Shown here piece after piece: positions 25,690 through 33,954 of a DNA stretch of 64,000 bases. Origin of the DNA: Haloterrigena alkaliphila (GTDB lineage Archaea > Halobacteriota > Halobacteria > Halobacteriales > Natrialbaceae); assembly GCF_017352155.2 (NCBI RefSeq), contig NZ_CP071462.1:3410001-3474000 (forward strand), read 5' to 3'. The notes beneath the pieces are model-generated. The model ran no database searches. It was given only the letters and a program-made list of their open reading frames with translations, and was not told the origin of the DNA. The stretch's first letter is position 1. Every line of letters begins with the position of its first letter. Both the position numbers and the translations under genes were made by a program.

Positions 25690-26073
25690 TCAGTGTTCGA
25701 CGAGTTCGATCAGAATCCCGCCGGTGTCCTTGGGGTGGAGGAAGGCCACCGAGTGCCCCCACGCACCGGGGCGGGGTTCCTCGTCGATCAACGCGACGCC
25801 GTGATCGCGGACCGTCTCGAGCGCGGCATCGATATCGTCGGTCGCGAGCGCGAGGTGGTGGATGCCGTTCCCGTTCTCCTCCAGATACCGCGAAATCGTT
25901 CCCTCCTCGAGGGGTTCGAGCAGTTCGAAATAACCGCCGTCCACCTCGAGAAAGACGACGCGCATGCCGTCGAACTCCTCCTCGTGGGCGACCTCGAGGC
26001 CGAAAAGATCACCGTATAGCGCCGCGAGTTCCTGTGCGTCCTCGGTCGCGATCCCTGCGTGATCGAAGTGCAT
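25690..26073 (-). CDS. mce: Methylmalonyl-CoA epimerase (VOC family)
   Basis: 127 residues with two VOC half-folds. The N-terminal HFDHAGIATEDAQELAALYG and the central GIHHLALATDDIDAALETVR carry metal-binding histidines; ELLEP and the terminal ILIELVEH carry acidic ligands. This pattern matches methylmalonyl-CoA epimerase, which interconverts (R)- and (S)-methylmalonyl-CoA before the mutase step. The mutase large subunit lies about 6 kb away (31796), supporting the call. It stands alone, convergent with a hypothetical gene. Confidence 0.9.
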   Translation of the reverse strand: MHFDHAGIATEDAQELAALYGDLFGLEVAHEEEFDGMRVVFLEVDGGYFELLEPLEEGTISRYLEENGNGIHHLALATDDIDAALETVRDHGVALIDEEPRPGAWGHSVAFLHPKDTGGILIELVEH

Positions 26074-26151
26074 CGGTCGTACGTCCGCGCGATTCGAGTG
26101 TTATTCTTGTGATTCGATCGAAATTCGTCACGGTCGCGCGACGGCGACGAC

Positions 26152-26634
26152 TCACTCCGCTTCGTCGACCAGCTTCAGGACCTCCACGTGGTTGAGGGGT
26201 TTCGTGTGTTCGGTCCGGATGAGGTTCTCGTCGTTGATCTCGAGGTCGAGCCCGTCGAGCCGTTCGGCGATGGCCGTGATGTCCTCGTCCTCGGCGCCGA
26301 CCGCCTTGATGTGGAGGTTCTCGTGCCCCGTCATCAGTTCGACCACCTCGAGGATCTGGGGCATCGCCATCGCTTTCTCGGCCACGTCGGCGCGGGCGCT
26401 GATGCGAGCCGTGCAGGTGAAATGAAAGTAGAGCCGGAGGCCCATCAGGTCGTGATCGACGGTCGCCGTGTATCCGGTGATGATACCGGCCTCCTCGAGG
26501 CGGTCCATCCGATTGTGAATCGTGTTGTCGGAGACGCCGATCTCCTCGGCCAGTTCGATCGCTTTGTACCGGGCATCCTCCTGCAGCAGATCGAGCAGTC
26601 GTCTGTCTACGTCGTCGAGTTCGTACGCCGTCAT
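26152..26634 (-). CDS. Lrp/AsnC family transcriptional regulator
   Basis: 160 residues: N-terminal helix-turn-helix (DVDRRLLDLLQEDARYKAIE, then ELAEEIGVSDNTIHNRMDRL) and a C-terminal RAM-type ligand domain (YFHFTCTARISARADVAEKA, VVELMTGHENLHIKAVGAED). Such regulators form octamers and respond to amino acids or related metabolites. The upstream region is AT-rich and carries palindromes, so autoregulation is plausible. Its targets are not evident. Confidence 0.92.
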   Translation of the reverse strand: MTAYELDDVDRRLLDLLQEDARYKAIELAEEIGVSDNTIHNRMDRLEEAGIITGYTATVDHDLMGLRLYFHFTCTARISARADVAEKAMAMPQILEVVELMTGHENLHIKAVGAEDEDITAIAERLDGLDLEINDENLIRTEHTKPLNHVEVLKLVDEAE

Positions 26635-26692
26635 ACGCTCCGTTATCGGTCCACGCCTATGTGGTTAACGATATTCCACCGTATGGCGGCCT

Positions 26693-26705
26693 ATATCGTC
26701 GATAT
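26693..26705. promoter_or_regulatory. 13-base palindrome upstream of the Lrp-type gene
   Basis: ATATCG-T-CGATAT is a perfect palindrome in an AT-rich intergenic region, about 60-70 bases upstream of the Lrp start. A second dyad, CCAC-GCCTAT-GTGG (26651-26664), lies closer. Either could be an operator for the regulator itself; this is inference from position. Confidence 0.4.
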
Positions 26706-26867
26706 TTTGGAGAATATTATATATTAGGGGAATAATCGAACTAACTCCCTCATGCCACTTAATAAGTGCATCTCGATCATTCGAAATCCGATTATATGGT
26801 CGAGTATGATTCGATATCCAATACAATATCTGGCTACACTAGGAACTATCGAAGTCTCAACCCAGGC

Positions 26868-26876
26868 TTTATATAC
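26868..26876 (+). promoter_or_regulatory. TATA box of the HalOD1 gene
   Basis: TTTATATAC with a purine/C-rich preceding string (CCCAGGC) lies 21-29 bases before the GTG at 26897, a good fit to an archaeal BRE/TATA promoter with a leaderless transcript. Confidence 0.55.
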
Positions 26877-26896
26877 GTGGGTCTCCTCCTTCGGCT

Positions 26897-27163
26897 GTGA
26901 ACAACGCACCGGTCGCTACGATCCAGTCGGAGTCCCTCCACGAACCAGACGAACTCCTCGAGGCCGTCGTCAACACCGTTGCCGACGCGGAGGGAGTATC
27001 ACCGCTGGAGCTGCAGCCGCTGGCCTCGGTCATCGATCCGGACACCTTCGATACGCTCTTTCCGTCCGAGACCGGCGACGTGACCCTCGAGTTCGAGTAT
27101 CAGGGCTACCGTGTGCGTATTTCCGGAGACACTCGCGTTACCGTCGAGGTTTCCCATGGCTGA
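26897..27163 (+). CDS. HalOD1 output-domain protein
   Basis: 88 residues from a GTG, matching the HalOD1 domain: a helix with LLEAVVNTVADAEGVSPLEL, the string PLASVIDPDTFDTLF, and the strands GDVTLEFEYQGYRVRISGDT. HalOD1 is a small haloarchaeal domain, often at the end of two-component proteins, believed to be an output or signalling domain. Here it stands alone and overlaps the next small gene by eight bases, so the two are probably cotranscribed. It has a clear TATA box. Confidence 0.85.
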   Translation: MNNAPVATIQSESLHEPDELLEAVVNTVADAEGVSPLELQPLASVIDPDTFDTLFPSETGDVTLEFEYQGYRVRISGDTRVTVEVSHG

Positions 27164-27323
27164 CGACGGGGAGAACTTCTGGACGTACTGTGCCCATTGT
27201 GGAACGCAACTCGGCATCGACGATTGGCCACCCATCGTCGAAATGGCCACTGATGGTGGCGAGACCGATCTCCACTCGTTCTGTGACGAGGAGTGTCGAT
27301 CCGGATGGACCGACACCGAGTAA
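27156..27323 (+). CDS. Small cysteine-rich (DUF7576-like) protein
   Basis: 55 residues: CAHCGT near the beginning and CDEEC near the end (HSFCDEECRSGW), i.e. four cysteines arranged as a zinc finger. It overlaps the HalOD1 gene by eight bases in a different frame, which suggests translational coupling. The length and pattern fit haloarchaeal DUF7576. A binding role for protein or nucleic acid is possible, but nothing shows it. Confidence 0.78.
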   Translation: MADDGENFWTYCAHCGTQLGIDDWPPIVEMATDGGETDLHSFCDEECRSGWTDTE

Positions 27324-27443
27324 CGGGTCGTCGGATGCGATCGGCGCTCGATAGCGACTCTCGATCGATCGTGTCGTGGTTCCGCGGGGCATCGGACGGA
27401 TGCGGACGGCTCTTTCTCTCTCACTCTCGCTTCGATTTTCGAA

Positions 27444-28277
27444 TCAGCGCAGCCCGAGCGTGACGGCCAGTTGGTCCCAGAGACCGTCGCCGACGTCGGC
27501 GACGGCGGCCATCTCGTCGTCGGTGAGTTCGAAATCGAAAATCGCCGCGTTCGCCTCGATGTGTCCGCGACTCGAGGCCTTCGGAATCGCCGCGACGTTC
27601 GGTTGCTGGACCAGCCACCGGAGCGCGACCTGCGCCGCCGACGCGTCGTAGGGTTCGCCGATCTCGTCAAGACGACCGTCGCCGACGACGGCGCCGTCGG
27701 CGAGCGGGCTGTACGCCGTCAGGCAGACGTCGCGCTCGACGCAGTACTCGAGCAGGCCGTCCTGGTGGTGGTAGGGGTGGTACTTCACCTGATTCGCGAC
27801 GATCGGCGCGTCGGACAGCTCGCGTGCGGACTCGAGTTGGTCGATTCCGAAGTTGCTGACGCCGAGGTGCTCGACCCGCCCCGTCTCGCGCAACTCGTTC
27901 ATGGCCGCCAGCGTCTCCTCGAGCGGCGCCTGATCGCTCGGCGCGTGCAACAGGAGGAGGTCGACCGCCGAGAGCCCGAGGCGCTCGAGGCTCTCGCGGG
28001 TCGACGCGAGCGCGTCCTCGTGCGCGGCGTTGTCGGGGTGGACCTTGGTGACGACGAAGACCTCCTCGCGGTCGACGTCGCTGCCGCCGAGGGCCTCGCC
28101 GACGGCGCGCTCGTTGTCGTACATCTGGGCGGTGTCGACGTGTCGATAGCCGACCTCGAGGGCGGTCTCGACGGCCCGCCGGCAGTCGTCGCCGGTCATC
28201 GTCGCGGTGCCGAATCCGAGCGCCGGAATCGCGGCGCCGCCCGCATTGACGGTCGCTGTCGCGAGGTCCGTGGTCAT
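27444..28277 (-). CDS. Aldo-keto reductase
   Basis: 277 residues. The catalytic tetrad can be seen: Asp and Tyr in DTAQMYDNERAVGEAL, Lys in VVTKVHP and His in LLLLHAPS. NADP-binding positions occur in LGVSNFGIDQLESARELS and IPKASSRGHIEANAAIF. These enzymes reduce carbonyl compounds such as 2,5-diketo acids or aldehydes. The chosen start, MTTDLATATVNAGG, removes an arginine-free but non-family leader. It is monocistronic. Confidence 0.9.
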   Translation of the reverse strand: MTTDLATATVNAGGAAIPALGFGTATMTGDDCRRAVETALEVGYRHVDTAQMYDNERAVGEALGGSDVDREEVFVVTKVHPDNAAHEDALASTRESLERLGLSAVDLLLLHAPSDQAPLEETLAAMNELRETGRVEHLGVSNFGIDQLESARELSDAPIVANQVKYHPYHHQDGLLEYCVERDVCLTAYSPLADGAVVGDGRLDEIGEPYDASAAQVALRWLVQQPNVAAIPKASSRGHIEANAAIFDFELTDDEMAAVADVGDGLWDQLAVTLGLR

Positions 28278-28429
28278 AGCGGCGGCTTCCACGTCGGCGG
28301 CTATCAAGTTCCGGCCGGCGAAAATCAAGCAGCTATCGCTGACCGCTCGAGGACGGTCCTCGTCCGGATGGCTCGCCCCGACTCGATCGAGACCGGCTGG
28401 TTGAACCGCGACGACGCGCTGAGGCCGGT

Positions 28430-30712
28430 TTAGGCGCCGTCGGCGGTGCCGTTTTCGGTGACCGTCACGTTCACGCCCGACGTCTCGTTGTCGGTCCCCG
28501 TCGCGTTCTCGGTGACGTTTCCGTCCATCACGGTCTCGTTGTCCGTGGCGTTCCCGTCCGTGGCATTCTCGCCGTCCGTGGCGTTCCCTTCCTCGTCGAT
28601 CGGTTCGTCCTGCGTGTCTTCGGTCGCGTTCTCGTCGGCCTCCTGCTCCTCGGAGTCGACCGCTTCGTCCTCCTCGGGCGGTTCCAGCGATTCGCCTTCG
28701 CCAGGCGGAACGATCTCGAAGACCGTGCCCGTGTCACCCTCGGGGACGCCGATCTGGTTCGCGAGCACGTACACGTTCCCGTCGAGGTCCTGGCCGAACT
28801 GGCGGACGAAGTACGGGAACGTCCCGTCCTCGGAGCCAGCGATCTGGAGTTCCTCCATGGTCCAGAGTTCGTCCCGCGGGACGACCTGCTCTCCGTCGCC
28901 ACCGCCGAGGTCTGCCGCGCCGTCGTCGGCCGTCTCGTCGGTCGCGTTCGTCTCGTTCTCGAAGCCTCCCGCTTCGATACCGCCCTCGCCTGGCGTCACG
29001 TTCTCCGAACCTTCGGTCTGGTTGCCGCCGCCGGCCATCCCTTCGGCGCCGTCGTCCGGCTCCGAGGCGGCAAGGATCCGCCCCTGTGGAGACTGGCGCG
29101 CCGGGTCGGCCGTCCAGTCGCCGAAGACGTACTTCCCGTCGAGGTCGGCGACGTCGCCGGCCTCGTAGACGTGGCCGCCGATGATCGTGATGCCGACTAC
29201 TTGCTCCTGATAGACGTGGGGATACTCGACGATCGGGTCCTGCAGTTCCTGCCCGTCGTACGGCGGTTCGTCGGGCGCCGAGTCGGGACAGTCCTCCGGG
29301 GGCTGGCTGGGGGTTTCCGTGCTGAAGCAGTGGGTTCCCTCCTTGACGTTCCAGCCGTAGTTGCCGCCCGCCTCGACGAGGTTGGCCTCCTCGAAGAGGT
29401 CCTGTCCGGCGTCGGAGACGAACAGCCGCCCGTCGCTGTCGAACGAGATGCCGAAGGGATTGCGCATTCCCCACGCGTAGTACTCGTCGAGCCCCTCGTC
29501 GACGTCGACCAGCGGGTTGTCCTCCGGAATGCCGTACGGGCGGTCTTCACCCTCCGTATCCACGTCGATCCGGTGGACACCACCGAGCAAGGTATCGGTG
29601 ACGTTCTGCCCGTTGCCGCCGTCGTTGTCGTCGTACCAGTCCTCGACGTGGCCCTCCATGTCGTCGTTCGCGCCGCCGCCGTCGCCCATCGGGACGTAGA
29701 GGTAGCCGTCGGGGCCGAACGCCATCGGGCCGGCGTCGTGGTTGTACTGGGGCTTCTGGAACTCCAGCAGGACGCGCTCGGAGTCGGGGTCGCCCGCGCT
29801 CAGGTCGTCGGTCGCCTGGAACTCGGAGACGACCTCCACGTGGCTCCAGCCGTCGGGCGTCTCGTCGTTCGGCGGCGCGCTGTAGTGGACGAAGAAGCGA
29901 CCGTTCTCGGCGAACTCGGGGTGGAATTCGATCCCCAGGAGTCCACGCTCGTCGTAGTCCTGGTCCGGATCGGCGTAGTCGCCCTCGAACGTCCCGAGTT
30001 CGACCAGTCGATCGCTGACGTCGAGGAACGGCTCGTCCTGCAACCCGTCGCTCGTGACGACCCACATCTCGCCGGTCTGATCCGCGACGAAGTACCGTTC
30101 CTCCTCCTCGTCGGCGACCGCCATATCCGTCGGCGCCGTCATCCCCGACGCGAGCGTCTGCACGCCGATCTCAGCCCCGGGTTCGAAGAAGGGCTCGGGC
30201 CCCTCGTCCGTCTCCTCGCTCTCGGCCGGTGCTTCTTGACCGCCGCCGACGGCGATCTCCCCGCGCATCGTCGCCGAGTGCGGTTCGCAGTAGTACTCCG
30301 CCATCTCGCTCGTCGCCTCGAACTCGAGCGTCTGTGTCTCGCCCTGACCGGTCAGAAGCTCGGTTCGCTCGAGTTCCTCGCCCTCGCCGCTCTCGATGAC
30401 GAAATTGTGGGGCTGTCCGTCGAGGTTCTCCCACGTGAGTTCGTAGGTGGTTCCCGACTCGAGTTCCAGCGTCGGATTCGTCTCGCCTGCGATATCGTCG
30501 GGCGCGACGCCCTCCCAGCCGCTGGTCTGGCCGCCCAGTTCGATCGTTTCGGTTTCCTGGGCGAGTGCGACGCCGCCCAGTCCGGCGACGCCGCCGGCGG
30601 CTACAGCGGCCTGTAGCACGCGTCGGCGCGACGTCGATGGATAGCTGTCGGCTGACTCCGGTACCGGGATCGATTGCTCGTCGGGTTGCTCCTCGCCGTG
30701 TTTTTCGCTCAT
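28430..30712 (-). CDS. Exported cupredoxin-PQQ-type sugar dehydrogenase fusion with glycosylation-rich tail
   Basis: 760 residues. A twin-arginine leader (SRRRVLQAAVAAGG, about residues 28-50) predicts Tat export. Residues about 55-155 form a cupredoxin with type 1 copper ligands His102, Cys142, His145 and Met149 (PHNFVIE and YYCEPHSATM). Residues about 180-640 match the glucose/sorbosone (soluble PQQ) dehydrogenase beta-propeller (YNHDAGPMAFGPDGYLYVPM, GMRNPFGISFDSDGRLFVSD, EANLVEAGGNYGWNV). The last about 80 residues are acidic with at least ten N-x-S/T sequons. Likely job: oxidise a sugar outside the cell and pass electrons to the copper domain. Cofactor and substrate are inferred from family only. 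Confidence 0.88.
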   Translation of the reverse strand: MSEKHGEEQPDEQSIPVPESADSYPSTSRRRVLQAAVAAGGVAGLGGVALAQETETIELGGQTSGWEGVAPDDIAGETNPTLELESGTTYELTWENLDGQPHNFVIESGEGEELERTELLTGQGETQTLEFEATSEMAEYYCEPHSATMRGEIAVGGGQEAPAESEETDEGPEPFFEPGAEIGVQTLASGMTAPTDMAVADEEEERYFVADQTGEMWVVTSDGLQDEPFLDVSDRLVELGTFEGDYADPDQDYDERGLLGIEFHPEFAENGRFFVHYSAPPNDETPDGWSHVEVVSEFQATDDLSAGDPDSERVLLEFQKPQYNHDAGPMAFGPDGYLYVPMGDGGGANDDMEGHVEDWYDDNDGGNGQNVTDTLLGGVHRIDVDTEGEDRPYGIPEDNPLVDVDEGLDEYYAWGMRNPFGISFDSDGRLFVSDAGQDLFEEANLVEAGGNYGWNVKEGTHCFSTETPSQPPEDCPDSAPDEPPYDGQELQDPIVEYPHVYQEQVVGITIIGGHVYEAGDVADLDGKYVFGDWTADPARQSPQGRILAASEPDDGAEGMAGGGNQTEGSENVTPGEGGIEAGGFENETNATDETADDGAADLGGGDGEQVVPRDELWTMEELQIAGSEDGTFPYFVRQFGQDLDGNVYVLANQIGVPEGDTGTVFEIVPPGEGESLEPPEEDEAVDSEEQEADENATEDTQDEPIDEEGNATDGENATDGNATDNETVMDGNVTENATGTDNETSGVNVTVTENGTADGA

Positions 30713-30894
30713 GTTGCGCTCACGACAGCGTCGTCACCCGATATTCGGATAAACCGACCCGACCGTTCCCGTCGGCCTCGCGGCACAACGGCTCGTTGTC
30801 TCCGAATCGCCAGAGGGGAGCGACCGTAAAACGGCTGTTACTCGAGACGCATCGTGACCGTTACTCGGATCTAAGCGCTCGTTCCGTCGATCAC

Positions 30895-30965
30895 ACCGCG
30901 CCGCCGGCTGTTACTCACAGAACTCGTCGCGCATAACGGTACGGATCGTCTCGACCATCGTATAC
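30895..30965 (-). pseudogene. Degenerate duplicate of the mutase 3' end
   Basis: About 57 of 72 positions match bases 31800-31871, the last part of the mutase gene. Translation on the minus strand ends YTMVETIRTVMRDEFCE, compared with [17 protein letters not shown] in the mutase. A missing G breaks the frame after the glutamate, and the mutase sequence upstream of this segment is absent. It can only be a fragment. It lies on the far side of the toxin-antitoxin pair from the intact 3' end. Confidence 0.7.
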
Positions 30966-31017
30966 GAGGCGCCGTTTCGTGGACGCCAACGAATCGGTAT
31001 CGTCGGGGACTGGTGGG

Positions 31018-31029
31018 ATAGATATTTAC
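31018..31029 (+). promoter_or_regulatory. TATA element of the toxin-antitoxin operon
   Basis: ATAGATATTTAC lies 27-38 bases before the antitoxin ATG, the expected position for an archaeal promoter. No clear operator palindrome is seen. Confidence 0.4.
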
Positions 31030-31055
31030 CGTGACAGACCTGACATACGAGTACC

Positions 31056-31283
31056 ATGGCGTCGTCCACCAGCCACGAACCGAGTGACGAACTGGTGACT
31101 GCCGTCGGACAGTACGTTCTCGGTGAAATCTCGCTCGGCAAAGCTGCCGAGCGAGCGGGGATGTCCAGATGGGAATTCGAGGAGGTGCTCGAAGAAGCCG
31201 GATTCACCGGATTCTACGGCCCACGGACGGATGACGAGCTGCAGGAGGAACTCGATACGGCACGGCGACTGGACGATCGATAG
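31056..31283 (+). CDS. UPF0175-type antitoxin
   Basis: 75 residues: an unstructured start, then YVLGEISLGKAAERAGMSRWEFEEVLEEAG, the helix-turn-helix-like signature of UPF0175, and the tail YGPRTDDELQEELDTARRLD. UPF0175 proteins pair with PIN toxins in archaea and cyanobacteria. The stop TAG is followed immediately by the toxin ATG, so the two are one operon. The protein is expected to bind the toxin and the operon's own promoter. Confidence 0.85.
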   Translation: MASSTSHEPSDELVTAVGQYVLGEISLGKAAERAGMSRWEFEEVLEEAGFTGFYGPRTDDELQEELDTARRLDDR

Positions 31284-31799
31284 ATGGCTGAGGGGTATCC
31301 GAATCCGATCGTTCTCGATGCGACCGTTCTGACCAATTTCGCCAGTGCGGATTCGATCGATTTTCTCGTCGAAGCGTTCGAATCACCAGTCGTCGTGTCG
31401 GCAGTCCGTGACGAAATCAACCGTGGAAACCGTCTCGGGTACGACTATCTTGAGACCATCGCCGATTCGTTCGGCGATCAGCTACCGATCATCGACGTCG
31501 ATCGGTCCGCCGAATCGTCCGAGATTCGCGACCGACTCGACGCTGGCGAAGCCGAATCACTACTCGCGGTGATCGAGCGCGACGGAACGCTCGCTACTGA
31601 CGATCTCGCCGCTCGCCGCGTCGCTGACGAGCGAACGATACCCGTCGTCGGATCGGTCGGACTGCTCGTCCTCGGCGTCGAGCAAGGACGAATAGACGAA
31701 GCGACAGCGGACGGCTGGCTCGAGACGTGGCGAAACGAGCGAGGATATTACGCGCCCGTCGAGAGCGTCAGTGACGTCCTCGACGACGACCAGCGTTAG
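31284..31799 (+). CDS. PIN-domain toxin (putative ribonuclease)
   Basis: 171 residues. The PIN acidic residues are in [12 protein letters not shown] near the start, in the [17 protein letters not shown] region, and in [24 protein letters not shown]. This is the pattern of Mg-dependent ribonucleases of the VapC class, inhibited by the upstream UPF0175 partner. It begins directly after the antitoxin stop. Its last four bases overlap the stop codon of the convergent mutase gene. Location at a duplicated mutase 3' end points to insertion. Confidence 0.85.
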
Positions 31800-33481
31800 A
31801 CCGCGCCGCCGGGCTGGTACTCGCCGAACTCGTCGCGCATGACGTTACAAATCTCGCCGACCGTCGCGTACACCTTCACGGCCTCGATGATGTACGGCAG
31901 CAGGTTCTCGTCGCCCCGCGCGGCCTCGCGCAGCGCCTCGAGTTTCGCGTCGACGGCCTCGTCGTCGCGCTCCTCGCGGACCGACTCGAGGCTGTCCATC
32001 TGGCGCTGCTGGTCTTCCGCGGTGACCTCCTGGACGTCGATCTCCGGCTCTTCCTCCTCGACCTCGAACTCGTTGACGCCGACGATGATGCGCTCTTTCT
32101 CGTCGATCTCCTTCTGGCGGTCGAAGGCGGTGTCCTGGATCTGGCGCTGGACCCACTGTTGCTCGACGGCCTCGAGCATGCCGCCGCGGTCCTCGACCTC
32201 CTCGAGGATCTCGTAGGCTTCCTCCTCGACGTCGTCGGTCAGCGATTCGACGTAGTAGCTGCCCGCGAGGGGGTCGATGGTGTCGGCAGCTCCCGATTCG
32301 TGAGCCAAAATCTGCTGGGTCCGCAGGGCGGTCCGGACGGACTCCTCGGTGGGGAGCGCGAGCGCCTCGTCCTTGCCGTTCGTGTGGAGGCTCTGCGTGC
32401 CGCCGAGCACCGCTGCGAGCGCCTGGTAGGCGACGCGGACGACGTTGTTCTCGATCTGCTGGGCGGTCAGCATCGAGCCCGCGGTCTGCGTGTGGAACTT
32501 GAGCTGTTTGGACTTCGGATCGTCGGGGTCGAACCGCTCTTCGACGATGTCGTGCCACATCCGGCGGGCCGCGCGGAACTTCGCGACCTCCTCGAAGATG
32601 TTGTTGTGGCCGTTGAAGAAGAAGGAAAGCTGCGGCGCGAACTCGTCGACGTCGAGGCCGGCCTCGATCGCCGTCTCGACGTACTCGATGCCGTTACCGA
32701 GCGTAAAGGCCAGTTCCTGAGCGGCCGTCGACCCGGCCTCGCGGATGTGATACCCCGAGATGGAGATGGTGTTGAACTTCGGCGTCTCCTCGGCACAGAA
32801 CTCGAAGATGTCCGTGATGATCCGCATCGACGGCTCGGGCGGGTAGATGTAGGTGTTGCGCGCGATGTACTCCTTCAGGAGGTCGTTCTGGATCGTTCCC
32901 CTGAGTTCCTCGCGGTCGACCCCCTGCTGGTCGCCCACAGCGATGTACATCGCCAGCAGCACCGACGCGGGAGCGTTGATCGTCATCGACGTCGAGACCT
33001 CGTCGAGCGGGATGCCGTCGAAGACGGTCTCCATGTCGTCCAGCGAGTCGATCGCGACCCCGGCCTTGCCGATCTCGCCGGCCGCCATGGGGTCGTCGGA
33101 GTCGTACCCCATCTGGGTCGGCAGGTCGAAGGCCATCGAGAGCCCCGTCTGGCCCTCGTCGAGCAGGTAGTGGTAGCGTTCGTTGGTGTCCTCGGGCGTC
33201 GAGAAGCCGGCGTACTGGCGCATCGTCCAGAGCCGCCCGCGGTGCCCCGTCGAGTAGACGCCGCGGGTGTACGGCGGCTCGCCCGGGTTCCCCAGATCTT
33301 CCTCGTAGTCGATGTCAGCGATGTCGTTCGGCGTGTAGAGCCGATCGACCTCCTGTCCCCCCGTATCCGTGGTGAACGTCTCCTTGCGCTCGCCGAACCG
33401 CTCGAGGACCGGTTCGACTTCCGCTTCGTGCCACTCCTCCGTGCTGGCACGGATCTCCTCGAGATCATCTTGATCGAACAT
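31796..33481 (-). CDS. mutA: Methylmalonyl-CoA mutase, large catalytic subunit
   Basis: 561 residues, the B12-independent-length large subunit with the TIM-barrel domain: [60 protein letters not shown], and [20 protein letters not shown]. It lacks the C-terminal cobalamin-binding domain, so a separate small subunit must exist elsewhere. With the epimerase at 25690 it converts methylmalonyl-CoA to succinyl-CoA. The start [13 protein letters not shown] is followed by the usual acidic helix. A partial copy of its 3' end lies about 0.9 kb away (30895). The symbol mcmA would be an alternative. Confidence 0.93.
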
Positions 33482-33615
33482 TACAGTAACGGTCGATGGG
33501 GTGGGGCTTGAAGGTTCATGAACGCGGCCAGTATCGTGGCGTCTCGGAACGAATTCGCGTCGCCGATCCGCCGTCTCGCCGCGGCGTTTTTCACGCGCGC
33601 CGTAGTGGGTCCGGT

Positions 33616-33852
33616 ATGGAGCCGACGGTCCCCGGCGACGACTCGCTGAACCGCCGCCGAGCGGCGCTGTACGTCGCGCCGTTTCTCGCGATCGGGGTGT
33701 TGAACCTCGTCCTCCTGCTGGGGTGGGGGCTGGATCCGCTGTGGGCGTTCGCAATTTTGCCGCCGATACTGGCCATCTCGGCGATCGCCTGGGTCGCGTT
33801 CTCCCACGGGTTCGACGTGCAGTCTCAGCGGTCGGGCGGTCGCCGCGACTAG
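33616..33852 (+). CDS. Small membrane protein, hypothetical
   Basis: 78 residues with two hydrophobic segments ([19 protein letters not shown] and [20 protein letters not shown]) and charged ends. No named family is recognised. It looks like one of the many small two-helix membrane proteins of haloarchaea. The ATG is preceded by a purine-rich stretch (GGGTCCGGT), and no partner is seen. Confidence 0.6.
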
Positions 33853-33954
33853 CGCCGGCTCTCGGCAGCCGGTCGCTCTCCACGGCCCGAATCGAGGGTC
33901 CCATGCGCGACCGGCTCGAAGGGGCGACGTACTTTCGGCTCGAGCGGCCACGCG

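Follow-up and report, generated by a model that had tools for sequence, protein, structure and literature searches.

What could a single protein do that carries a type 1 copper site in front of a sugar-dehydrogenase-like propeller and ends in a tail crowded with N-x-T sequons? The question is raised by an open reading frame at 28430..30712 on the reverse strand (start ATG, product 760 aa) of a 64,000-nucleotide stretch of Haloterrigena alkaliphila DNA (the window; contig NZ_CP071462.1, positions 3,410,001 to 3,474,000), taken from a host genome of 4.27 Mb in 3 contigs. A preliminary description made from the letters alone had read this frame as a copper domain followed by a propeller of the glucose/sorbosone dehydrogenase (GSDH) family and a sequon-rich tail, a layout that was borne out by the reading frame itself, by Pfam and by residue checks. 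In our interpretation, to which we assign a probability of about one half, the product (the fusion protein) is an oxidoreductase exported by twin-arginine translocation (Tat), which is displayed on the cell surface or secreted and passes electrons from its propeller to its own copper. What is new here is that, outside the class Halobacteria and largely in genomes that encode methyl-coenzyme M reductase, the propeller is joined, at one end or the other, to complete copper domains of other kinds.

The proposed chain of events would begin with export by Tat and with the addition of glycans by AglB on two flexible segments. These sequon segments may protect the acidic chain in brine and hold it soluble and spaced. 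The pocket of the propeller would oxidise a small molecule outside the cell, probably some sugar or polyol, by means of calcium and a quinone-like cofactor, which would be used without a PqqC route in the host and held by contacts unlike those of known pyrroloquinoline quinone (PQQ) enzymes. Electrons would leave the propeller in one-electron steps for the copper of the same chain, and could then continue to halocyanins and finally a terminal oxidase; haloarchaeal halocyanins have been predicted to feed terminal oxidases (PMC3403918; here and below, papers are cited for the portion of their text that was available). Export and the glycosylation machinery are supported by sequence, whereas substrate, cofactor and acceptor are what we infer. 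The features on which the argument draws are the following:

30560..30712, reverse strand: N-terminal leader, residues 1-51, with S-R-R-R at 28-31, a hydrophobic stretch and an ALAQ-E region end, without lipobox Cys (sequence)
30248..30544, reverse strand: cupredoxin (type 1 copper) domain, residues 57-155 (PF00127 and ligand conservation)
30407..30409, reverse strand: copper ligand His102 (sequence and row conservation)
30266..30289, reverse strand: copper ligand loop Cys142-x2-His145-x3-Met149 (sequence and row conservation)
29054..30181, reverse strand: six-bladed propeller part 1, residues 178-553, GSDH/HHIP-like, HHIP being hedgehog-interacting protein (PF07995, AlphaFold model, Foldseek, VIA-align)
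29738..29740, reverse strand: His325, counterpart of the catalytic base His144 in sGDH, the soluble quinoprotein glucose dehydrogenase (His in 84/84 rows)
29459..29464, reverse strand: Arg417-Asn418, counterpart of sGDH Arg228-Asn229 (83/84 and 84/84 rows)
28874..29053, reverse strand: sequon-rich disordered insert within the propeller, residues 554-613, 4 N-x-T (predicted local distance difference test, pLDDT, <50, and sequon counts)
28697..28873, reverse strand: propeller final part, residues 614-672, with model strands at 618-624, 635-641, 647-652 and 662-668 (model, and fold match to 672)
28433..28675, reverse strand: sequon-rich acidic disordered tail, residues 680-760, 10 N-x-T (sequence, model and sequon counts)

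The fusion protein is thus ordered as a Tat-type leader, the cupredoxin (57-155), a short linker, the propeller from about residue 178, the disordered insert (554-613), the last propeller strands up to residue 668 and the disordered tail (680-760). Arg29 and Arg30 of the leader are invariant in 29 aligned rows, and TAT profiles match it weakly (E 0.61 and 0.2). The chain is strongly acidic (184 D/E vs 22 K/R), no membrane helix is found near its end by hydropathy, and it holds three cysteines only (142, 462, 475) and no CxxCH.

The copper domain passes the Copper-bind model PF00127 with 41.9 bits (cut-off 21.2; residues 90-155), and His102, Cys142, His145 and Met149 are identical in 30/30 orthologue rows, the window's own included. 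Conservation was followed further in hand-chosen rows (40 haloarchaeal stretches, 27 outside the class, 7 orthologues and 9 rows from named loci), percentages of which are not population frequencies; the resulting sets of 57 haloarchaeal and 84 total rows include the window protein, two of their rows (L072 and L039) are identical over the propeller, and the truncated frame L083_-1_1157 and the canonical paralogue L061 are excluded from the counts. A cupredoxin, defined by a match to a hidden Markov model (HMM) of the orthologues' domain and hence independently of the ligand residues, is present in 35 of the 57 haloarchaeal propeller rows, and all four ligands are found in 35/35. The full type 1 site named in the preliminary description therefore stands, and so does the ligand conservation which it had proposed as a check. 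The site is complete and invariant, and copper binding is predicted from it. Like plastocyanin- and halocyanin-type cupredoxins, the domain has H-C-H-M type 1 ligands and a PF00127 score above cut-off; the fusion protein differs in that the cupredoxin is a domain of a larger protein, with a C-x2-H-x3-M spacing. The same genome also encodes a free halocyanin-like paralogue (L003, PF00127). Another protein, L002 (482 aa), ends in a cupredoxin-like region that is 56% identical to the copper domain of the fusion protein over 101 aligned residues; Pfam gives nothing for L002 with E 0.01 or lower, its N-terminal part shows several His pairs, and we read it as a copper-domain protein without a family name.

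Relatives outside the class were sought in 392 genomes across the window's phylum, to which the survey of fusions was confined. In this set, 27 genomes labelled 'same phylum' have a relative, always matching the propeller, and 27 stretches from 24 of them yielded 28 proteins, including one adjacent second frame; 17 of these were scanned with Pfam, and the other 11 for the Cys-His-Met motif only. A Pfam copper domain is present in 12 of the 28, N-terminally in L106, L107 and L108 and C-terminally in L109, L111, L112, L115, L116, L117, L119, L131 and the second frame of L130. No ligand is missing in any of the 12 (His, then C-x2-H-x2-3-M). The haloarchaeal cupredoxin HMM, run on L106-L112 only, gave no match at E 1 in these seven proteins, though Pfam finds a copper domain in six of them, so that these six domains are other cupredoxins. 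Since different cupredoxins sit at opposite ends, propeller and copper must have been linked, or linked anew, more than once, and this repeated joining points to a redox-active propeller as the strongest argument from sequence, short of proof. Methyl-coenzyme M reductase alpha was found in 9 of the 10 tested genomes among the 12 with an outside-class fusion (no match in G647; G602 and G469 lay outside the test). The propeller has further partners, namely CBM6/35 (L111), fasciclin (L110) and DUF7282 (L107 and L108); L120 gave a match in the Cys-His-Met motif scan, and L113 and L114 have long N-terminal parts without Pfam match. The fusion was not found described in the PMC literature searched, and papers beyond that set may describe it.

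Within Halobacteria, matches with E no higher than 1e-20 occur in 213 of 341 genomes, in some cases to the copper domain only. Copper domain and propeller occur together in at least 66 of the 341 genomes, spread over seven family codes (f1, f2, f3, f4, f6, f8, f10) and counted by hand as matches running from query residue <=60 to >=385, and propeller-alone matches are found in many other genomes of the class. In a tree built from the 57 haloarchaeal rows plus one outgroup, all 35 fused rows fall together with 4 unfused rows on one branch with a support of 94/95, just below the program's star; this tree needs 4 label changes, for which one gain and three losses would suffice. When 27 rows from outside the class are added the grouping is looser, the haloarchaeal fused rows need 5 changes, of which starred branches force 2, and 12 changes among architectures are needed over the 85 rows, in a quick tree with a long outgroup that does not distinguish gains from losses.

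The propeller matches GSDH PF07995 with 100.9 bits (cut-off 25) over residues 193-463, covering only positions 3-229 of the 332 in the profile, and fails the cut-off of the subfamily TIGR03606 (66.6 vs 434.55 bits). By sequence, the best solved match found with phmmer is HHIP (E 7e-25), followed by sGDH (7e-14), and a profile search also favours HHIP. The AlphaFold model has a mean pLDDT of 63.7 and exceeds 90 over much of the propeller core. Searched with this model, Foldseek returned HHIP (1e-24), sGDH (6e-20), the aldose sugar dehydrogenase Asd (1e-17) and the pyranose dehydrogenase AA12 (2e-9); VIA-align, over model residues 174-672, places HHIP (Z 36.5) in a tie with Asd-type enzymes (36.4, 36.0), ahead of sGDH (28-29) and AA12 (23-24). 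The independent model confirms that this is a six-bladed propeller of the quinoprotein-glucose-dehydrogenase fold. A partial match to the PVC-type haem-binding propeller TIGR02604 (E 1.7e-6) reaches 27.7 bits vs a cut-off of 122.2, and the fusion protein lacks a CxxCH. No AA12-named model is among the four families listed for the fusion protein at E up to 1.

The proximity to HHIP suggests the best-placed alternative, which we consider unlikely: a non-catalytic surface binder, whose propeller would hold a glycan or protein as HHIP does while the cupredoxin would merely carry electrons or copper. The top solved HHIP structures include complexes with heparin and with a glycosaminoglycan mimic, the arginine pair that holds PQQ is lost, and the disulphide candidate C462-C475 is kept in 57/57 haloarchaeal rows, with Cys in 76/84 of all rows. 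In the printed alignment the two proteins share D-E-R-G-L-L, the counterpart of His325 and a G-D motif; HHIP is not known to have a copper domain. Where HHIP reads His-Asp in the printed alignment, however, the fusion family keeps Arg-Asn (83/84 and 84/84 rows) together with the catalytic His, none of which a binder need keep.

The meaning of these residues derives from sGDH, in which the base His144 is assisted by calcium and Arg228, Asn229 lies beside the ketones and calcium is held by Gly247/Pro248 (PMC6881810), the function of His144/His363 has been described, and Lys377, with C-terminally placed arginines such as Arg408, anchors the carboxylates of PQQ (PMC6881789). In the fusion family, E255, H325, D344, N418 and the calcium-loop G436 are invariant across the 84 rows, the window's included, and R417 is found in 83/84; this core is kept in rows with and without a copper domain. 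The Arg-x-Arg, read in a register set by the D-G motif and printed paralogue alignments, is mostly replaced: at the position of Arg406, the other sGDH arginine of that motif, the fusion protein has F635 and Arg occurs in 0/84 rows (3 gaps), while at that of Arg408 (R637) Arg occurs in 30/84. Lys is found in 0/57 haloarchaeal rows at the Lys377 position (T534), but this position is not diagnostic because the canonical paralogue L061 also has Ala there (by eye). By alignment, then, the family keeps the residues that do the chemistry without the usual PQQ clamp. His355 (29648-29650), on a loop absent from the canonical paralogue in the alignment, is kept in 83/84 rows and may line the pocket and bind metal, substrate or cofactor.

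A second alternative, that the protein is an ordinary PQQ-dependent aldose dehydrogenase which would bind environmental PQQ as sGDH and Asd do and reduce the fused copper, we judge unlikely. With those enzymes it shares the six-bladed propeller, the catalytic His, the Arg-Asn dyad, the calcium-loop Gly and a PF07995 score above cut-off; it differs in a diverged C-terminal third, in the replaced Arg-x-Arg, and in the cupredoxin, insert and sequon tail that are added to it. PQQ is used by E. coli and by fungi with AA12 enzymes although neither produces it, and these enzymes still bind it without the Lys377 and Arg408 contact (PMC6881789, PMC6881810). The fungal quinohaemoprotein CcPDH, an AA12 enzyme (AA8 cytochrome b - AA12 - CBM1), resembles the fusion protein as an extracellular propeller joined to its own electron-transfer domain, and its PQQ contacts depart from those of sGDH, as the counterparts in the fusion do (PMC6881789); its electron domain, however, is haem b where that of the fusion is copper, and the structural match is weaker (VIA Z 23-24 vs 36). 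Of its PQQ contacts Arg273, His539 and His560, the first would fall at Thr195 of the fusion protein by a rough placement from aligned ranges, and R256, tried as the Arg273 counterpart, was dropped since those ranges put Arg273 near model residue 195. As AA12 enzymes bind PQQ with altered contacts, PQQ could still be held in the fusion family through other ones. Against an ordinary enzyme stand the Arg406 and Arg408 counts, the TIGR03606 score far below cut-off, the best matches to HHIP, and the separate canonical enzyme in the same genome. That paralogue, L061 (G000:C1:3678103-3679170), is an aldose-dehydrogenase-type protein of 218.5 bits in which the R-L-R motif is complete and a lipobox-like Cys is present.

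The supply of PQQ bears on the same issue. PqqC was found above cut-off in 0/125 genomes of the family and 0/341 of the class, with one sub-threshold match of 19.4 bits in the class, in a search whose control was positive on a Sinorhizobium plasmid; nor was it matched in 22 tested genomes outside the class that have a propeller relative, with or without copper domain. A PQQ pathway in the host was rejected on the basis of PqqC (none above cut-off) and PqqD (sub-threshold only in the host genome, best 21.1 vs 23.4 bits), PqqB and PqqE having not been searched. Because no PqqC passes the cut-off, any PQQ would have to come from outside, unless another route exists. The label 'PQQ-type' in the preliminary description was thus only partly upheld: 83-84 of 84 rows have the catalytic His, the Arg-Asn and the Gly of the calcium loop, but the clamping Arg pair is missing and, as worded, the label is not supported, given HHIP as nearest solved structure, the TIGR03606 score and the PqqC result over 341 genomes. 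The description had also suggested looking for missing PQQ contacts, and this comparison, made by alignment rather than on model coordinates, gave a divided answer, the Arg pair being gone and the catalytic core present.

The fusion protein has 15 sequons, all N-x-T, of which 10 lie in the tail, 4 in the insert (about 554-613) and one at N370. The last 81 residues hold 10, vs a shuffle mean of 1.8, a number reached in 0/20000 shuffles; the claim of at least ten sequons in the last 80 or so residues is thereby confirmed beyond composition, whereas the second disordered segment (554-613, 4 N-x-T) and N370 had been overlooked. Of the 348 open frames in the window with 100 aa or more, it has the most tightly packed sequons (10 in 60 aa, followed by 4 in the runner-up). 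Over the 30 orthologue rows, which are related and do not amount to 30 independent tests, the insert has 200 sequons for 218 Asn (shuffle mean 29.6, reversed motif 19) and the tail 176 for 191 Asn (33.1 and 40). Together, 376 of 409 Asn head a sequon, vs about 63 in shuffles, while N-S/T (8) and N-x-x-S/T (33) are rare. The opposite holds for residues 51-553, before the insert, where the same rows have 542 Asn and 10 sequons vs 52.5 when shuffled (lowest of 300: 37). Sequons thus appear favoured in disordered segments and avoided in the fold, as judged by the shuffles and the reversed motif. This distribution is the reverse of that reported for human glycoproteins, whose sites are mostly in ordered regions (PMC7142085). 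An AglB oligosaccharyltransferase is encoded in the genome (892 bits), AglB-dependent surface glycoproteins are known in Haloferax volcanii (PMC8241124), and from its sequence the fusion protein is probably secreted and N-glycosylated.

That the segments are instead unglycosylated acidic low-complexity repeats, by-products of N/T/D/E composition or of DNA repeat expansion, is very improbable: a 15-bp tandem array of 3.3 copies does lie in the tail, the relatives L039 and L040 have D/E-rich tails with 3 sequons each overall, and the rows are not independent, but the shuffles, the reversed motif (59 in both segments), the scarcity of N-S/T and N-x-x-S/T, the depletion in the folded part and the codons, which differ among sequon copies in the window gene, tell against composition or DNA repeats as the source. 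Sequon-rich linkers are not unique to the fusion, as L003 has a repeated N-E-T/N-E-S linker before its copper domain. Outside the class, L109-L112, L116, L117 and L131 have 24-31 sequons each, and several carry N-V-T-P-T-P linkers before the C-terminal copper domain. The insert is also a site of domain addition, since L047 (Halovivax) carries two PF03640 'secreted repeat of unknown function' stretches there (protein residues 758-800, propeller insert region). In L043, L044, L045 and L047 (Natrialba, Halovivax) another long insertion, acidic and rich in T or N, lies near residue 387 of the fusion protein.

In the surroundings of the gene (25690-33904), L036, L037 and L038 share with the window the succession mutase - fusion - aldo/keto reductase - glyoxalase-family protein, and L043, L044, L045 and L050 keep the order of mutase, fusion and glyoxalase-family gene without a match to the reductase, so that gene order, with the reductase optional, is kept in 7 of 17 named loci. 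The glyoxalase-family neighbour reads by sequence as epimerase-like. A role of the fusion tied to these neighbours was considered and dropped, since no functional link follows from the conserved order. Between the fusion gene and the methylmalonyl-CoA mutase lies a toxin-antitoxin-like pair, a UPF0175 protein (31056-31283, forward strand) followed by a PIN-like protein (31284-31799, forward strand; 21.4 bits, cut-off 27.8); neither was found in the 17 named loci (tblastn, E 1e-8).

How, then, does the proposal of an exported oxidoreductase that reduces its own copper fare? It is favoured by the analogy with CcPDH, which combines an AA12 propeller, an electron-transfer domain and a cellulose-binding module (PMC6881789, PMC4133262) and may serve as a precedent, and by the outside-class relative L111, which has a CBM6-type carbohydrate-binding module in addition. 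Several observations weigh against it: the Arg pair for the PQQ carboxylates is absent family-wide; HHIP, the closest of the solved structures, serves in binding and has His-Asp at the dyad; PqqC is missing above cut-off throughout the 341 genomes; and a copper domain is lacking in 22 of the 57 rows from haloarchaea and was not detected in 16 of the 28 outside-class proteins, 11 of these by motif scan only. Because so many relatives do without the domain, copper is not required for the propeller to persist. In addition, the conserved neighbours, methylmalonyl-CoA mutase and the epimerase-like glyoxalase-family gene, give no hint of sugar oxidation. The extracellular sugar-oxidising electron-transfer enzyme of the preliminary description consequently retains its Tat-type leader, copper site, quinoprotein fold and catalytic core, while PQQ and sugar are unproven.

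A wider and more speculative reading, which we regard as unlikely, is that archaea of this phylum have repeatedly joined an HHIP-like propeller, its core intact but lacking the known PQQ anchors and using an unrecognised cofactor, to type 1 copper at either end, giving single-chain surface electron-transfer proteins that in methanogens could be among the surface copper/quinoprotein contacts proposed for direct interspecies electron transfer. In ammonia-oxidising archaea, PF07995 proteins have been proposed to reduce cupredoxins or quinones (PMC6657660), and for Methanothrix and Methanosarcina separate surface copper and PQQ-type proteins have been discussed in electron uptake (PMC10470525, PMC6315138). 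The potentials of known cupredoxins (150 to 680 mV) lie above what would be expected of a carrier that feeds methanophenazine (-165 mV) and speak against the methanogen part (PMC6315138).

The pattern of sequons, with most Asn of the disordered segments and few of the fold, gives a clear prediction for glycoproteomics. Should electrons indeed pass from the propeller to the copper of the same protein, the name 'glucose/sorbosone dehydrogenase' would hide a class of secreted oxidoreductases in haloarchaea and methanogens. A protein with a quinoprotein-type propeller and copper would be a concrete candidate for the surface contacts through which methanogens take up electrons directly, a question still under discussion (PMC6315138, PMC10470525).

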